Origin: Desulfovibrio sp.
Lineage (GTDB): Bacteria > Desulfobacterota > Desulfovibrionia > Desulfovibrionales > Desulfovibrionaceae
Direction: 5' to 3'
NCBI GenBank assembly: GCA_031273845.1
Contig: JAISRC010000098.1
Location: forward strand, 1 to 52,802
Length of the DNA: 52,802 nucleotides
The translations under genes were made by a program, and so were the position numbers. The notes below the pieces were generated by a model, which did not search any database, had not been told where the DNA came from, and saw only the letters and a program-made list of their open reading frames with translations. Every line of letters begins with the position of its first letter. The stretch's first letter is position 1. Shown in pieces: positions 26,507-52,410 of this stretch.

Positions 26507-26547
26507 AGATCACCGCGTCGGAAAATTGTCTGCACGGCATAGTACAA

Positions 26548-26564
26548 GCAACTGCCGTGCCAAA
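26548..26564 (-). promoter_or_regulatory. Sigma-54 promoter of fliJ-motE-truA
   Basis: On the minus strand TTTGGCACGGCAGTTGC matches the -24/-12 consensus (TGGCAC-N5-TTGC) with GG and GC exactly 12 bp apart. Initiation near 26536 gives a leader of about 30 nt to fliJ. A second near-copy lies 70 bp upstream. Confidence 0.85.
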
Positions 26565-39300: not shown

Positions 39301-39870
39301 GCTTGCGGCTTCGCTTTCTTCGTCGTTTTGCGGGGTACCGCCGTCCGCGGCATCGTCCCGTCCCGTGCCGTCCTCCGCGTTCTCCTCCGGACGGCGCAGC
39401 CAGAGGGGCCTGCCCTCGCCGTCATAGCTCAGGGTGATGACAGGCTTGTAAAATTCGGCGCGGCTGACGCGGAATTTGCCGCGCAACAGGCTTAAAGGGT
39501 CCAGGTAGACGCCGAGGCCGCGGGCGCGGGCCAGAGGTCTTTCGTCGCCCGCCGGTGCGATCTTGCCCGCCGCGGCTATAAATACGTCCGAGGCTTCAAG
39601 ACCGGGAAGGGGGAAGAACACAGGACGCAACGCGCCGCGGATGCGGAAAGGCAGCCCTGTGGCGTCGCTCAACATCTTCTGCACCTCTGCAGCGACCAGA
39701 TCCGGTTTGGTCAGACAAAGAATATACAGGGAAGCCGAGACGGAAACGATGAGCAAAAAAAGGGTTGCCGCCGCTCGCAACAGGAAACGGAACAGACGCG
39801 GGCGCCGCGGACCGGGTGCCCGCAAGGGCGGGATATGCGCCGGCAAAACCGGATGAAGCATGCCGCTCAC
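36307..39870 (-). CDS. AsmA-family protein
   Basis: This 1187-residue protein has a single N-terminal membrane helix (LLRAAATLFLLIVSVSASLYI) followed by a long beta-rich body. The C-terminal block includes NLKIKDGLYPAF, GVIRSDNFMLGGPMVDMKGGGWYDLNTRDLDIQISV (given as two blocks) and VPTLPVHFYGNAASP, typical of AsmA/TamB-like bridge proteins. These are thought to move phospholipid between the membranes. It is encoded 18 bp after the DUF401 permease gene and convergent with the dehydrogenase. Confidence 0.87.
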   Translation of the reverse strand: MSGMLHPVLPAHIPPLRAPGPRRPRLFRFLLRAAATLFLLIVSVSASLYILCLTKPDLVAAEVQKMLSDATGLPFRIRGALRPVFFPLPGLEASDVFIAAAGKIAPAGDERPLARARGLGVYLDPLSLLRGKFRVSRAEFYKPVITLSYDGEGRPLWLRRPEENAEDGTGRDDAADGGTPQNDEESEAASREARLAILREAVNLLCSPPGDGMPPIVVREGRFFFYTAQGDLLLSLREVNGSFSPTTEGENFHVSAAFALPDADLSLRFSLAAGIGRTASPVKGSIGGVLGMAPPGSREIKAEFSSGFDLSTDGSVLNLPGFSLNAEGDALRGDLRVDLGTPECTGKVTLDKLSLTRWFGFGRVLPPGLRQALHAMSGEFDLVFNRNKVEAHNLAAAAGGLNLQGYVGTPDFSDPAVVVRVELAGRPDLDALLPFLGVAGRRLPDPQPPSFDHPPLAPYPDDPSAPPPPTGEGIVPGYDINIHADDILLHGVEGGPLDVRVHPAPDGSNRTRVDIKAEGLLRGRADGYIDVDAAGLLMRYNVADMDLGMLPENEGSVTRIAGIATGVCEIDMPVREDGAIADDWPLRADVLVRNMQISGRFRGEDWSLLFGSAAGKGAGSIHAVLEKGVSIVGDWNLDGRALRASWSPAGDDSVKGNFSGTLLWPPMPPDRAEGGEGKEQSYTVERVEGKSSLTGVMTLPLASFFAPLRGKATADFTWNVHAEKLHIRKAVFEGMGSYAESAASLDFSGPASSVQAAPSFKLSPRELFAAWKIGIPEAAQVPKVFSGRTELRIDNSGLSLEKIKAEADSSPLSGDIAVRWAPFAADLRDRQNNGAAADPGLRELWTVRLFSEQLDLDSFFPADEQQGQGQQEQREAARTDGGKNRAGSEKPWNLSFVKGLAADVRIQARNIRKSRMTAENAVFTAMLRKNDISLRFTTDKFYGGACDLSLQGTVHPDSQVRLQRGGLRLRGVALGGLMVDYAGERSYAGTADLDAEMNGLFARSVDFPAGLSGSWNLKIKDGLYPAFFSGPDSRLSNTFSLASASGPLDRGVIRSDNFMLGGPMVDMKGGGWYDLNTRDLDIQISVTLAKVPTLPVHFYGNAASPRMNIRGVDMVLETMQAAGTGLFGLIRGVLELPAKAVTGIGSLFESDPKGGRAQKTPRGQTPGAGSAAPAKPPVRGSTMPIRR

Positions 39871-46434: not shown

Positions 46435-49400
46435 TCAAACGCCCTCCGTCCCCTCCAGGCGTCTTTGAATCGCCTCATATTCAAGATTGTCCACCTGTTC
46501 CCTCAGCCAGACAAGCAATTCCGCATCCTGTTCGTACTCATAACTCTCCAACTCCGCCAAAACCTTCTCCATGCCGGTGATGGAAAATTCTCTGCTCGCT
46601 TCAAGGAGTTTCCGGAGCAGGGTCTTGTCGGGATACGGCCTTACAGGTTTAATCCGCTCGTCCGTCTGAAGGTCATTGAGCAGGGCGTTCAGATCTTGCA
46701 GGAGTTTTTCGACCTCATGTATGAACGGTCCGTTCTTTGCCAGTATAGTCTCAAAATCTCCGGCCTTGGCGGCAAGCTCCAGCACCTCCGCCCGGCGGGC
46801 CAGCGATGCGGCGCATATACCGTAACCCGCGCCCTTGATGCCGTGCACCGTCACGGCATAATCCTTCAGTCCCCCCGGCGATACATGACTCAATTCCTCA
46901 AGGAGCGACGGCGTATGCAGACAAAAAATACGGAGTATCTGGAGATAGGACTCCTCGTCATACCTTTTCATGCAGGCCGCGAGATCAATATCCGCCGGCA
47001 GGCGACCGTTCAGTATGCCGGACATGGAGCCTTCGCTGCGCTGTTCTGCCTGCAACCGCTTGTCGACGGGTACCCAGGCGTCCATCAGCCTGCTCAGTTT
47101 GTTCATCTCAATCGGCTTGGTCAGGTAATCGTTGAAGCCGTTTTCCAGAAACATCTCCCGCATTCCGGTCATGGCGTTAGCCGTAAAGGCTATGAGCGGC
47201 ATTTCGCGGCAATGTTCACAGGGCAGGGCACGTATCGCCGTCGCGGTCTCTATCCCGTCCATACCGGGCATCATGTGGTCTATGAGAGCGAAGTCATAGC
47301 GGTTCTCCTTCACCAATGCTATCGCCTCGACCCCTGACCCGCAGCATTCCACCTGCACTTTGTAGGGGGCTACGAGGCCCGATACAACCCTGAGATTCGT
47401 CTCAATGTCGTCCACTACCAGAATTCGGGCGGTCGGCGCCGTAAAACCGATATATATATCGTCGCCCTCGCGGTAGTTCCCGGAAAGCGACGAGCGATTC
47501 AACACGGAAGCGATTGTCACGCTGTATGCCGGCATGGGCAGGGTGCGGACTCCGTCCAAAAGCGGCGACTTGTCGACCTCGGACAGGACGACCAGCGTCG
47601 TGCATGATTGCAGACCCCCGGCGTAAGCCCTGATCTCGTCGTAAATCTGCATCGAGATGAAGGCGAAGCGGTACTCCAGACTCTCGGCCTCCCTGCGCAA
47701 TTCCCCGGCATCGCGGACAAATTTGCTACCGACGCCCAGGTTCTCCAGAGAACGGATTATCGACTCAGAGCGGACGGACACCTTGTCGCAGACCAGAACG
47801 CGCTTGTCCGCCGTATCCTCGACCGCCGCAAAACGCGCGTTCCCCGCTGTCCTCTGCGGTATGACGGCCGTGAACACGCTGCCTTCCCCGGGCCGGCTCT
47901 TCACGGCGATGCTGCCTCCCATGAGACGGCAGAGGTTCTGCGCGATGGAAAGACCGAGTCCCGTCCCCTCTATCATCCTGTTTCTGTAGGTGTCGATCTG
48001 GGAGAAGTCTATGAAGAGCTTGTCCATATCCTCTTCTCTGATGCCGATGCCGGTATCGGAGACGGTGTAACGCAGCATCGTCCGCCCCGGCCCGTCGGGC
48101 GCGCCTTCGACCGTGAAGGCTATGTGCCCGGAGTGGGTATACTTCACGGCGTTCGTCAGCAGATTCAGGAGAACCTGCCTTATCCTGATTTCGTCCCCGA
48201 TAAGCCTGTCCGGAAGAGAAGCGTCTGCATTCACAACGAAATGGACGGGTTTCTCCATTATTCTCATACGGATAATGCTGACCACATCGTTAATCAGAGA
48301 GGCCGGGGAATACTCGGCCTCGATAATGTCCATCTTGCCAGATTCTATCTTGGAAAAGTCCAGAATGTCGTTGATGATCGTGAGAAGATTCATTCCCGCC
48401 TGCTTTATCCCCGCGGCGTCTTCCATGGCGCTCTTCGGTATGTCCTTGCGCAGAAGCAGCTCGGTCATCCCCAATATCGCGTTCATCGGAGTGCGTATCT
48501 CGTGGCTCATCCGGGACAGAAATTCGCTTTTGGCTGAATTTGCCTTCTGGGCTTGCCTGATATCGTTGACGTTGATAATCCCGCCGATGAGCAGCTTCGG
48601 TCTGCCGTCTTTCCTCTCCGCGATATGTCCGGAGGTGATTACCCAGAGATATTGCCCGTTCTTGTTCCGCATCCGCAGCTCCGCCCGATAAAAATCAGTC
48701 ACCCCCCTGAGATAGTCCTCTATTGTTTTCATGACGCGTTTTCTGTCGTCTTCGTGTATTATATCCATCCATTTATGAGCGGCGCCGCTGTTCGCCCTGT
48801 CAAAATATCCGACAGCATTGATCTCTTCAGGGGCGTAGCCGTATTCATTCTCGAAGTGTCTGCTGAATATCAGACAATCGTTCTCGCAGTCCCACTCCCA
48901 ATAGCTGAGTCTGGATATCTCGGCCACGGTGTCCAAATGTTCCTGTTTTCTCCGCAGGGCGTGTTCGACGGCCTGAGTGTTGTCAAGTTCCTTGCGGAGG
49001 CGTTCGTTCATTGTGTTGCCGGCTTTGACCGCCGCATGCAAAGACTCTTCCGCGCGTTTCACGGCGGTGATGTCCTGCAGTATGCCCGTCAGGTACAGCG
49101 GTTTCCCGTCCTTGTCCCAAGCGGTGACGATGCTCCGGTTGCTGAGCTTTATTACGGCCCCGTCGCGGCGTTTCAGCCTGATCTCAACGGCAAAATCCGC
49201 GGCCGATCCGGACGCGCATTTATCCTCCATCTCGTCGACAAGAAGCATGTCCTCGTCCGCCACGAGGCGCTTTCTCATGCCGGGCGTGCGCGACAGTTCC
49301 TCCCCGGCGTATCCGCTTATCTCCATCCAGTTTCCCAGAAAAACGATTTCGTCGCTTTGCAGGTTTTTATTCCACAGGGTGAATAGGGCAGTGTCGGCGC

Positions 49401-49440
49401 ATGAGCGGGGTATCCCCTCGAAGCCGGCCGCTTGCATCAT
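46435..49440 (-). CDS. Hybrid sensor histidine kinase (PAS-PAS-HK-pseudoREC-REC-HPt)
   Basis: This 1001-residue protein has two PAS domains (about 20-130 and 170-300), an H-box MSHEIRTPMN with His313, an ATPase domain (DTGIGI, GTGLGL), a degenerate receiver (about 545-655, no acceptor Asp), a true receiver with Asp721 (LIDHMMPGMDG) and an HPt with His866 (VHGIKGAG). No membrane span. It is a paralogue of the kinase at 21434-24214, differing in the sensor part and the extra pseudoreceiver. It has a GGAG site. No cognate regulator lies beside it. Confidence 0.92.
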   Translation of the reverse strand: MMQAAGFEGIPRSCADTALFTLWNKNLQSDEIVFLGNWMEISGYAGEELSRTPGMRKRLVADEDMLLVDEMEDKCASGSAADFAVEIRLKRRDGAVIKLSNRSIVTAWDKDGKPLYLTGILQDITAVKRAEESLHAAVKAGNTMNERLRKELDNTQAVEHALRRKQEHLDTVAEISRLSYWEWDCENDCLIFSRHFENEYGYAPEEINAVGYFDRANSGAAHKWMDIIHEDDRKRVMKTIEDYLRGVTDFYRAELRMRNKNGQYLWVITSGHIAERKDGRPKLLIGGIINVNDIRQAQKANSAKSEFLSRMSHEIRTPMNAILGMTELLLRKDIPKSAMEDAAGIKQAGMNLLTIINDILDFSKIESGKMDIIEAEYSPASLINDVVSIIRMRIMEKPVHFVVNADASLPDRLIGDEIRIRQVLLNLLTNAVKYTHSGHIAFTVEGAPDGPGRTMLRYTVSDTGIGIREEDMDKLFIDFSQIDTYRNRMIEGTGLGLSIAQNLCRLMGGSIAVKSRPGEGSVFTAVIPQRTAGNARFAAVEDTADKRVLVCDKVSVRSESIIRSLENLGVGSKFVRDAGELRREAESLEYRFAFISMQIYDEIRAYAGGLQSCTTLVVLSEVDKSPLLDGVRTLPMPAYSVTIASVLNRSSLSGNYREGDDIYIGFTAPTARILVVDDIETNLRVVSGLVAPYKVQVECCGSGVEAIALVKENRYDFALIDHMMPGMDGIETATAIRALPCEHCREMPLIAFTANAMTGMREMFLENGFNDYLTKPIEMNKLSRLMDAWVPVDKRLQAEQRSEGSMSGILNGRLPADIDLAACMKRYDEESYLQILRIFCLHTPSLLEELSHVSPGGLKDYAVTVHGIKGAGYGICAASLARRAEVLELAAKAGDFETILAKNGPFIHEVEKLLQDLNALLNDLQTDERIKPVRPYPDKTLLRKLLEASREFSITGMEKVLAELESYEYEQDAELLVWLREQVDNLEYEAIQRRLEGTEGV

Positions 49441-49768: not shown

Positions 49769-49824
49769 TGTGCGGAAACGCTCTATGGTGTGCGTAAACG
49801 CACATCATATATGTGCGCAAAGCG
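49769..49824 (+). promoter_or_regulatory. Triple repeat TGTGCG-N-AAA, candidate enhancer sites
   Basis: TGTGCGGAAACGC (49769), TGTGCGTAAACGC (49789) and TGTGCGCAAAGCG (49812) are 20 and 23 bp apart. The middle copy is the inverted repeat TGTGCG-TAAA-CGCACA. They lie about 110-170 bp upstream of the sigma-54 promoter at 49922, the usual position of sites for a sigma-54 activator. An A/T-rich stretch (about 49873-49910) between them could bend. Confidence 0.6.
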
Positions 49825-49921
49825 GGTTACGAGCCGGGCGGGCTACCGGCACGCCCAAAGCATCCTTTCTCTAATATCTTTAAATACAATGATAAAAAAT
49901 AAAAGAGATGAAGCGGCATAT

Positions 49922-49938
49922 TTGGCACACCCTTTGCT
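49922..49938 (+). promoter_or_regulatory. Sigma-54 promoter
   Basis: TTGGCAC (49922-49928) and TTGC (49934-49937) fit the -24/-12 consensus, with GG and GC 12 bp apart. Expected initiation is about 49949. The only product visible downstream is the hairpin-rich RNA ending at the terminator near 50098. Confidence 0.8.
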
Positions 49939-49948
49939 TATTAAAAAA

Positions 49949-50098
49949 TGACCGATGCGGTAACGTGTCCCCCACACGGTGCCGGCCTCCCCCCAAGGTG
50001 CAGTCGGTTTCCTGATAATCCGGTTCTACCTATTCCGGATTATATGAAGTCCCCCCACTTCATGTAAAACCCCCGGTTCCCCCCATCCGGGGGTTTTC
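49949..50098 (+). ncRNA. Candidate small RNA with C-rich loops
   Basis: This is about 150 nt from a sigma-54 start to a terminator. Perfect stems are CGTGT/ACACG with a C5 loop (49964-49978), ATAATCCGG/CCGGATTAT (50015-50043), ATGAAGT/ACTTCAT with a C6 loop (50044-50063) and the terminator AAAACCCCCGG/CCGGGGGTTTT (50066-50097). The octamer TCCCCCCA occurs three times (49988, 50050, 50078), plus TCCCCCA at 49968. These C-rich loops could pair with G-rich ribosome-binding sites. A frame of 39 codons starting at 49948 exists, but it lacks a Shine-Dalgarno. No known RNA family is recognised. Confidence 0.7.
50066..50098 (+). terminator. Rho-independent terminator of the small RNA
   Basis: AAAACCCCCGG (50066-50076) and CCGGGGGTTTT (50087-50097) form an 11-bp stem with a TTCCCCCCAT loop followed by a T run. 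A third TCCCCCCA lies in the loop. Confidence 0.9.
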
Positions 50099-50166
50099 TG
50101 TTCGAGAGCGTCGACTGAAGAATGTTTTCAATGCACAGCACCAATAAAGCGCTTTTAGGGCATTTT

Positions 50167-50193
50167 AGAGCATTTAAAAGTTGAAAATGCTCT
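50167..50193. repeat. REP-like palindrome
   Basis: AGAGCATTT and AAATGCTCT are 9-bp perfect arms around AAAAGTTGA, between the small RNA and the small membrane protein gene. A degenerate relative lies at about 50550-50574. Confidence 0.65.
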
Positions 50194-50261
50194 GGCGGCG
50201 CATCGGCTTTGCCTGCCCGGACGGAATATGCTATGCTTCTGCCGACGATGCCGAGGGAAAT

Positions 50262-50456
50262 ATGATTTTCAAGTTGCGCTTTGATACCGGAGCTTTGCCT
50301 CCTCTGCTGTTTTCCGCGGCGCTGATCGCCGCGCCCTGGGTGCTGGAAGTCATCGGCCGCCCGCTCGCCGAGAGCGATTCAGACATACTCATGGCCGCCG
50401 GCGGTCTGGGTTTTCTTTACTCGGCCCTGGCCCTTATACAGCGCAAGGACGAATGA
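50262..50456 (+). CDS. Small hypothetical membrane protein
   Basis: This 64-residue protein starts MIFKLRFDTGALPPL and has two hydrophobic segments (LLFSAALIAAPWVLEVIG and ILMAAGGLGFLYSALALIQ) separated by an acidic turn, ending RKDE. A GAGGG site lies a few bases before the ATG at 50262. A longer reading from a REP palindrome at 50181 is unlikely. No function is known. It lies 184 bp before the RluD-CoaE gene, and may or may not share its transcript. Confidence 0.6.
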   Translation: MIFKLRFDTGALPPLLFSAALIAAPWVLEVIGRPLAESDSDILMAAGGLGFLYSALALIQRKDE

Positions 50457-50640: not shown

Positions 50641-52410
50641 ATGAATCTCAATACCGGGAGCAGGGTCATACGCTTCAGTGCCGGAGAAGGAGCCGCCCGC
50701 CTGGATCTTTTCCTCGCCCGGCATCTGCGCCCCGAAGGTATTTCCAGGGAAAAAATCAAGAGGCTGATCCGCGACGGCAAGGTCAGGGTCAACGGAGCGC
50801 CCGCCCCGTCTCCCAAAGAAAGCGTATCGGCCGGGACAACGCTTGAAATATCCCTGCCGGCCCTTTCCTCCTCCTTGACGCCTGAAGCCGGCTCCCTGAA
50901 AGTACTTTACAGCGACGCGGCCTTGGCCGTGATCGACAAGGAAGCCGGGCTGACGACGCACCCCGCGCCCGGATGTCCCGAAGGCACGCTGGCGCACAGG
51001 CTGCCGCTCCATTTCCCCGAACTTGCCCGCATGGAAGGGTTCCGCCCAGGCATAGTCCACCGCCTGGACAAAGACACAGGCGGCCTGATGATCATCGCCC
51101 TGAGCGAAAAGAGCCGCCTGGTTCTGGCGGCGCTCTTTGCCGGGCGCGGGATATTCAAGGAGTACCTGGCCCTTGTGCACGGCGTTCCAACTCCTCTCAC
51201 GGGCAATATCAACGCGCCCATAGGCCGGGACCCGGCGCGCAAAACCCGCATGGCCGCGACGGCTTCCGGCCGGCCGGCCCGAAGCGCATACCGTGTGCTT
51301 TATGCCGACCCGTCAGGGCGCTTTGCCCTGACGGCCGTGCGCATCTTCAGCGGCCGCACGCACCAGGTGCGGGTGCATATGCAGAGCATCGGGCATCCGC
51401 TGATCGGCGATGCCCTGTATACGGACCCTCGATGCGCGGAACGCTCCCGGAGCATGGCAAGATCGAAAAGCGACCGCAAACTTGCCGAACTTTTCAGGCC
51501 GGGACGACAGATGCTGCACGCCCACAGGCTTTCCTTCGTCCATCCCATGCCCGGAGCCATAAAGCACGAGGCTTTGCGGGAGTCTGTGCTCCCCGCTTCG
51601 GAATCCGGCGCGGCGTACCGTGTCGAGGCAAGGGGTTCGGAACTGTCTTTCGTCTGTCCTCCTCCCCGGGATTTTGCGGACTGCGCAACGGCCCTCGCCC
51701 GCAGAGCGTTGCGCGTCGTGCTGACGGGATCGCCGGGCTGCGGCAAATCGGCTTTGCTGACCATGCTCGCCGAAGACGGGACGCCTGTGTTCAGCGCCGA
51801 CCGGACAGTTGCCGACCTGTACGCGCCGGGCGGCGATGCCGCGCATCTGTTGCGGGCGCGTTACGGAGACCGTTTCGTAGCCCGCGCCGGCGCCGGCGCC
51901 GGCGTCGACAAAAAGGCATTGGGGGAGGCCATGGCTGCGGACGCCGGGCTGCGCCGGGAGGTAGAGAACACGGTACATCCCCTGGTGTTTCATGCCCTGC
52001 AGGCGTTCCGCTCGGAATGCGACGCGCTGTGTCTGCCTTTTGCCCCGGCCGAGGTGCCGCTGTACTTCGAGGCCGGCGGGGAATGCGGCAAAACAGAGGG
52101 GCGCGTCGTCACCGTCGGGGTGCATTGCCCCTTCCCCGTCCGCCGTGAGCGTCTTATGCGCCTGCGCGGGTGGTCCGACGAAATGGTCACCCGCATGGAA
52201 TCCTGGCAATGGCCGGAGGACAAGAAGATATCGGCCTGCGATTTTGTAGCGGACAACACCGGAAGCCTGGAAGATCTCAGGAGGGAAGCCGGGCGTCTTA
52301 CGGCATTTCTGGAGGATGCGCGAGCCGTTGAGGACGCGGAGCTTGAGCGCATGTTCGCGGCGCTTTGGGACGGCCGGCAGGGCCGGGGAAATGATGATTT
52401 ATCTCTCTGA
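50641..52410 (+). CDS. Fusion of RluD-type pseudouridine synthase and dephospho-CoA kinase
   Basis: This 589-residue protein has two catalytic parts. Residues 1-330 are an RluA/RluD synthase: an S4 domain (RLDLFLARHL) and the catalytic loop HRLDKDTGGL. Residues about 355-580 are a CoaE domain: P-loop GSPGCGKSAL, FSADRTVADLY and EVPLYFEAG. CoaE phosphorylates dephospho-CoA, the last CoA step. No separate coaE was seen in the window. The start has only a weak ribosome-binding site. The last residues lie within a MITE-like repeat. Confidence 0.9.
   Translation: MNLNTGSRVIRFSAGEGAARLDLFLARHLRPEGISREKIKRLIRDGKVRVNGAPAPSPKESVSAGTTLEISLPALSSSLTPEAGSLKVLYSDAALAVIDKEAGLTTHPAPGCPEGTLAHRLPLHFPELARMEGFRPGIVHRLDKDTGGLMIIALSEKSRLVLAALFAGRGIFKEYLALVHGVPTPLTGNINAPIGRDPARKTRMAATASGRPARSAYRVLYADPSGRFALTAVRIFSGRTHQVRVHMQSIGHPLIGDALYTDPRCAERSRSMARSKSDRKLAELFRPGRQMLHAHRLSFVHPMPGAIKHEALRESVLPASESGAAYRVEARGSELSFVCPPPRDFADCATALARRALRVVLTGSPGCGKSALLTMLAEDGTPVFSADRTVADLYAPGGDAAHLLRARYGDRFVARAGAGAGVDKKALGEAMAADAGLRREVENTVHPLVFHALQAFRSECDALCLPFAPAEVPLYFEAGGECGKTEGRVVTVGVHCPFPVRRERLMRLRGWSDEMVTRMESWQWPEDKKISACDFVADNTGSLEDLRREAGRLTAFLEDARAVEDAELERMFAALWDGRQGRGNDDLSL

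Follow-up and report, generated by a model that had tools for sequence, protein, structure and literature searches.

A conserved small RNA with C-rich hairpin loops and a predicted sigma-54 promoter in a Desulfovibrio-like genus

Comparative sequence analysis identifies positions 49950-50098 of the window (the whole 52,802-nucleotide stretch of Desulfovibrio sp. DNA analysed here) as a real, conserved regulatory RNA, with a degree of conservation far beyond chance. The RNA gene, its fold, its promoter, the putative upstream activator sites (UAS) and the linkage to a regulator can all be read from comparison of related sequences. Together they make it probable, in our judgement, that a Desulfovibrio-like genus, which we take from the isolate names of the matching Desulfovibrio sp. 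MAGs Nm470 and Nc350 to come from termite guts, uses a regulator-driven, sigma-54-dependent, trans-acting RNA whose C-rich loops would block mRNAs carrying G-runs, with adhesin genes as the best candidate targets.

Structure and conservation of the RNA

An earlier sequence-only reading of this DNA had proposed a transcript of about 150 nt made of compact hairpins and closed by a terminator. Its coordinates were right. The predicted fold of the region 49949-50100 has an energy of -58.3 kcal/mol (z = -4.7), and 0 of 200 shuffled sequences are as stable. The predicted architecture consists of a three-way junction with two C-loop hairpins, a hairpin with a TTCTACCTATT loop, a further C-loop hairpin, and a terminator that itself carries a C-loop (Table 1). 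The same reading had counted the octamer TCCCCCCA three times and TCCCCCA once, and had assigned three of these copies to hairpin loops; the counts hold, as does the placement of C-runs in loops, but the number was too low, since all four C-rich octamers and heptamers occupy loop positions. The octamer occurs exactly three times in the 52.8-kb window, a count that is itself unremarkable (3.1 copies expected from base composition), and what is unusual is that all three copies sit in hairpin loops inside a stretch of 98 bp. The C-run in the loop of hairpin D is confined to the window copy and missing from close homologues.

Table 1 Features of the RNA locus in the window.
Feature	Position	Strand	Sequence and evidence
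Putative activator (UAS) site 1	49769..49784		TGTGCGGAAACGCTCT; 2 mismatches to TGTGCG-N4-CGCACA
Putative activator (UAS) site 2	49789..49804		TGTGCGTAAACGCACA, perfect palindrome; sole exact match in genome G000
Possible half or degenerate UAS site 3	49812..49827		TGTGCGCAAAGCGGGT; sequence only
Predicted sigma-54 promoter (-24/-12)	49923..49938	+	TGGCACACCCTTTGCT; 0 mismatches to TGGCAC-N5-TTGCW; -24/-12 element in 13/13 copies
Small RNA gene	49950..50098	+	Covariance-model matches in 12/15 genus genomes; 36/49 pairs changed on both sides
Three-way junction	49950..50009	+	Closing stem 49950-49956 with 50003-50009, around C-loop hairpins A and B
Loop of hairpin A	49968..49974	+	TCCCCCA; fold and sequence
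Loop of hairpin B	49988..49995	+	TCCCCCCA; fold and sequence count
Hairpin C	50015..50043	+	Loop TTCTACCTATT in the window copy, CCCTCCTTTT-like in relatives
Hairpin D	50044..50063	+	Loop TCCCCCCA at 50050-50057
Intrinsic terminator hairpin	50067..50098	+	Loop TCCCCCCA at 50078-50085; helix 7 with all cells paired

A DNA search recovered a second copy in the genome of the window (G000, for which genome-level statistics rest on ~0.44 Mb), on contig C104 at 77% identity, together with copies in three congeners. A covariance model (R1) built from these five sequences retrieved 13 copies in 12 of the 15 genomes of the genus, two of them in G000, with several scoring just 53-80 bits. Across the 13-copy alignment 94% of cells were paired and 36 of 49 base pairs had changed on both sides, including 5 of the 7 pairs of helix 1, the closing stem of the junction. 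This alignment was fitted to the model and hence favours structure, but the controls lay far below it: 0 of 500 shuffles showed covariation as high, and sliding the pairing partner by 1-3 columns left only 5-10 such pairs. Stems thus vary across the 13 copies while the C-rich loops persist. The sequence-only reading had staked itself on the conservation of stems and loops in relatives, and the covariance-model search bears this out strongly.

The copies differ in their surroundings. The second G000 copy (G000:C104:14270-14418; L011, L054) lies 3' of gap and near purA, a position common to G013, G003 and related genomes, whereas the window copy lies elsewhere and adjoins a divergently transcribed hybrid histidine kinase gene (46435-49440, minus strand; PAS, HisKA, HATPase and receiver domains). 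Another HATPase protein is encoded divergently from the RNA in G009 and G006. These contexts bear on two readings of the element other than a trans-acting RNA. As a cis-acting leader or terminated attenuator it would serve the small ORF at 50181-50456 and the rluD-like gene at 50641-52410, both of which it precedes on the same strand; this is highly improbable, given that the element has its own terminator and that the downstream gene varies between genomes, which contradicts such a role. The other reading, that the element codes for a short protein or is a dispersed palindromic repeat with no small-RNA function, could account for the differing genomic contexts and for the one open frame seen in some homologues, but has in our judgement almost no probability. 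No frame is open in every copy (in the window, the one beginning at ATG 49955 ends after two codons), on which ground the coding reading was rejected, and promoter, UAS sites and stem covariation are maintained together at all loci.

When the R1 search was extended across the family, it returned outside the genus just two terminator-like chance matches, in G154 and G077. A further candidate (L006, genome G039) was rejected as an RNA homologue, its similarity being confined to the promoter stretch. Rfam scans at the gathering threshold gave no match for the window RNA and, at six related loci, nothing but one FMN riboswitch. Relatives in other genera, too diverged for R1, were therefore located via the regulator.

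Promoter, activator sites and regulator

The proposed sigma-54 promoter upstream of the RNA is an exact match (Table 1) and predicts a transcription start at ~49948-49950. Taken alone this match is weak evidence, since the window holds four sites with at most one mismatch to TGGCAC-N5-TTGCW where 1.9 are expected by chance; across the genus, a -24/-12 promoter precedes 13 of 13 RNA copies, 25 to 29 nt ahead of the covariance-model start. One other exact match in the window, TGGCACGGCAGTTGCT (26547-26562, minus strand), lies upstream of a truA-like gene.

Farther upstream, outside the interval 49922-50098 covered by the sequence-only reading, the window copy is preceded by the putative UAS sites (49769-49827). 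At least two TGTGCG-N4-CGCACA-like sites (at most 3 mismatches in 12 positions) are found within 300 nt upstream of all 13 RNA copies, while 1% of random 240-nt windows of G000 hold two or more. Away from the RNA loci, the motif is on the whole no commoner in the 15 genus genomes than a reversed control. It was therefore rejected as a sign of a wider regulon, and the activator that would bind it seems to be dedicated to the small RNA.

A candidate for this activator is suggested by G014, in which the gene directly upstream of the RNA encodes a response regulator combining a sigma-54 activation domain with a Fis-type HTH; elsewhere in the genus the two are not linked. Orthologues of this NtrC-type regulator (68-71%, where other homologues reach about 52% at most) occur in 12 of the 15 genus genomes, including G000 (G000:C36:87319-88803), where no kinase gene adjoins it. 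RNA and regulator were both found in 11 genomes and neither in two (G007, 96% complete, and G011, 65% complete); G010 has the regulator without the RNA, and G012 (82% complete) the RNA, with the regulator not found. On its own this co-occurrence table is weak, coming from 15 mostly incomplete genomes.

The wider distribution of the regulator links it to similar RNAs. Within the family, 37 of 149 genomes, belonging to 10 of 44 genera, have an orthologue, and none was found outside the family in an order-wide sample. Genera g9, g49, g32 and g26 all have, immediately after the regulator gene, palindromes of the same type, a sigma-54-like promoter and a predicted RNA whose poly-C loops contain 5-10 C. 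One genome of g9 carries three tandem RNA copies at this position and another carries two (L094, L095), and every copy has UAS sites and a sigma-54 promoter of its own. In g22 and g27 a small ORF comes after the sigma-54-like site, and poly-C hairpins lie beyond the ORF; judged by eye, this ORF (L112 3160, L113 3130, L114) seems to encode a degenerate receiver-like protein. C-runs of at least five C are unpaired in the predicted folds in 96 of 115 cases. In g49, the poly-C RNA is followed at a short distance by an FMN riboswitch (L101 3606-3766).

The regulator carries the motif GAYTGS in g49, g32, g26 and g22, and GAFTGS in the genus of the window. A two-component system is likely, given that in those same four genera the gene ahead of the regulator reads as a histidine kinase with a PAS domain. 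The hybrid histidine kinase beside the window copy is possibly the sensor of the system. Conservation, UAS sites and the proposed activator together lend support to the earlier suggestion of an activator-gated, sigma-54-controlled small RNA with conserved C-rich loops.

Candidate targets of the C-rich loops

The sequence-only reading had further suggested that the loops face G-rich ribosome-binding sites and had named lpxK and a MarR gene, both in the window, as targets. The general idea is plausible in light of the adhesin comparison below, though short of proven. The two named genes found no support. A G5 run does stand ahead of the lpxK start (GCGGGGGAGCGGTG), but giant adhesin genes elsewhere in the genome are better candidates. 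Strings of GGAAGGGGG occur in the window at 39605 (plus strand) and 14209 (minus strand).

A scan for G-runs in G000 pointed to a pair of paralogues that encode large adhesin-like proteins with BapA-prefix domains, each gene having a G-run before its start. Among RNA-bearing genomes, a G5-G7 run just before the ATG was found in 6 of 6 BapA-prefix adhesin genes, two in G000, two in G005 (AAGGGGGGTTCATCATG and AAGGGGGTCGCATATG) and one each in G004 (AAGGGGGGGTTAAGATG) and G012 (CAGGGGGAAGCCATG), as opposed to 0 of 3 homologues in G007, which is without RNA and regulator. The homologue in G011 has a G5 site, though neither RNA nor regulator was found in that genome (65% complete). As a baseline, G5 at the same position before any early start occurs in 5 of 240 G000 genes (2.1%), and the predicted loop duplexes of the two G000 adhesin sites (-20.5 and -17.3 kcal/mol) are stronger than those of all 240 sampled genes.

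Since the two G000 genes were found via the G-run search, just the genomes other than G000 test the adhesin idea. The comparison draws on a small sample, with close homologues in few genomes, weak matches for distant ones, and shared ancestry, so that, with two of the six positives forming the discovery set, the pattern amounts to support rather than proof. Pairing with the C-loops would be the simplest explanation, because the adhesin G-run stays while the surrounding sequence differs; possibly, the G-run by itself enhances translation. On this sequence evidence, the BapA-prefix giant adhesin genes are the best candidate targets.

Any target set is probably small. Family genomes that have the system show no excess of G-runs before ATG over those that lack it (median ratio to control, calculated by hand, ~2.2 versus 3.4), so a global role is unlikely, and a broad usage of poly-G start sites was rejected on this ground. 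A scan for GGGGGGA-N3-8-ATG in five genomes, in which many matches fell away from gene starts, likewise found no gene start conserved genus-wide; apart from the paralogous adhesins, the only sites to recur in that scan were PhnH, in two close relatives, and one within a carB-like gene, in three genomes. The phnH-like genes, in which GGGGGGA immediately precedes the start codon (G006:C58:12553-12568 and G009:C128:3752-3767), are possibly a further target. In the window's own genome, G5-G6 runs also precede the starts of two genes for large membrane proteins (L317 10830-13817, minus strand; L307 14170-17427, plus strand) that by eye look like sensor kinases.

The lack of enrichment of G-run start sites in carriers would also fit a different role, in which mRNA pairing by the loops is secondary and the RNA acts as a multivalent decoy titrating a C-rich-RNA-binding protein, as in CsrB/CsrA or CrcZ (also sigma-54-dependent)/Hfq/Crc. 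A stable RNA that repeats almost the same single-stranded motif several times is typical of decoys, and loop runs of 5 to 10 C are tolerated across genera. We nevertheless consider a decoy unlikely. No C-binding partner was identified here, the adhesin G-run before the start tracks RNA presence in the genomes compared, and the closest studied C-loop small RNAs pair with G-rich mRNA, according to the parts of the reports drawn on here (PMC10470900, PMC3771888). Less likely still, in our estimate, is a Desulfovibrionaceae two-component system whose main or only output, its binding sites being no commoner elsewhere in the genus genomes, is a poly-C-loop RNA that works as a multivalent decoy, titrating a C-rich-RNA-binding factor, and perhaps pairs with adhesin mRNAs too; no such poly-C decoy is known to us in bacteria. 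Pairing with G-run mRNAs is the reading that we favour.

Proposed mechanism and comparison with known systems

We infer a course of events that runs from a signal through regulator binding and transcription to loop pairing and repression. The signal would act through a kinase to yield the phosphorylated NtrC-type response regulator, which would bind the TGTGCG-N4-CGCACA sites and drive sigma-54 polymerase at 49923-49938. The product, a stable trans-acting RNA of ~150 nt, would present four C-rich hairpin loops able to pair with G-runs at or beside Shine-Dalgarno sequences, so that ribosome entry would be blocked. The outcome would be less adhesin, and the system would be a control of surface attachment. 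The first biochemical steps are modelled on those established for NtrC-type regulators, and the pairing step on the precedents of B11/6C and sX13. If this is true, a phosphorelay controls giant biofilm adhesins post-transcriptionally, with a bearing on how sulfate reducers attach in guts and to metal; D. vulgaris relies on a pair of giant adhesins for its biofilms (PMC11784015). A recognition code made of C-loops and start-site G-runs would also gain a further independent example.

The sequence-only reading had announced a new regulatory system. This stands for the combination, plausibly a C-rich-loop RNA controlled by sigma-54 and a two-component system, for which a first target class can be suggested, but not for its components, since C-rich-loop small RNAs (6C/B11, sX13) and sigma-54-controlled ncRNAs of Desulfovibrio were already described. 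The RNA has the several hairpin loops with C-runs that mark the former group and, as predicted from sequence, the -24/-12 element at fixed distance and the putative upstream enhancer-binding-protein sites that mark sigma-54-dependent small RNAs. Among these, Qrr and CrcZ/CrcY likewise combine a sigma-54 promoter with an NtrC-family activator, sometimes in several copies per genome. They differ from the RNA described here in sequence and structure, Qrr pairing through non-poly-C regions and CrcZ using A-rich motifs that titrate Hfq/Crc.

Similar hairpin loops are known from RNAs of other lineages. The actinobacterial 6C/B11 RNA (Rfam RF01066) has hairpin loops of about six C that repress via G-tracts in 5' UTRs, with compensatory mutants, as described in the part of PMC10470900 used here, which reports no sigma-54/NtrC control. 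It has two loops, compared with four or more here, and belongs to another phylum; RF01066 scored 28.7 bits against a cut-off of 47 (E = 0.035, on the 3' half), and Rfam membership was rejected, the C-rich matches being weak and sub-threshold. Similarly, sX13 of Xanthomonas presents three apical C-rich loops (C4/C5) and acts without Hfq to repress mRNAs that have G-rich motifs close to their start codons; sigma-54/NtrC control is unreported in the corresponding part of PMC3771888. This RNA comes from another lineage and has no sequence relation to ours by Rfam scan.

Closest in organism and control are the sigma-54-controlled ncRNAs already described in Desulfovibrio, associated with DVU0679 (Dv_sRNA2) and DVU0653. 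In the sections of PMC3333781 and PMC4641369 consulted for this comparison, DVU0679 of D. vulgaris is an enhancer-binding protein with the unusual motif GAYTGS that regulates the ncRNA directly downstream, Dv_sRNA2, to which no function is assigned and for which no C-rich loops or targets are described. The likeness lies in an NtrC-type GAYTGS regulator with a sigma-54-regulated ncRNA right behind it, within the Desulfovibrionaceae, and extends to the GAYTGS orthologues of g49, g32, g26 and g22 with their predicted poly-C transcripts. The genus of the window differs in having GAFTGS and, except in G014, an RNA unlinked from the regulator. Setting the two side by side by description rather than by sequence, we infer that the system here is the DVU0679/Dv_sRNA2 system. 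The present analysis would then equip a group of sigma-54 ncRNAs from sulfate reducers, whose function goes unrecorded in the portions of the literature cited, with a structure and a binding motif, and would name a likely regulator and targets open to testing.
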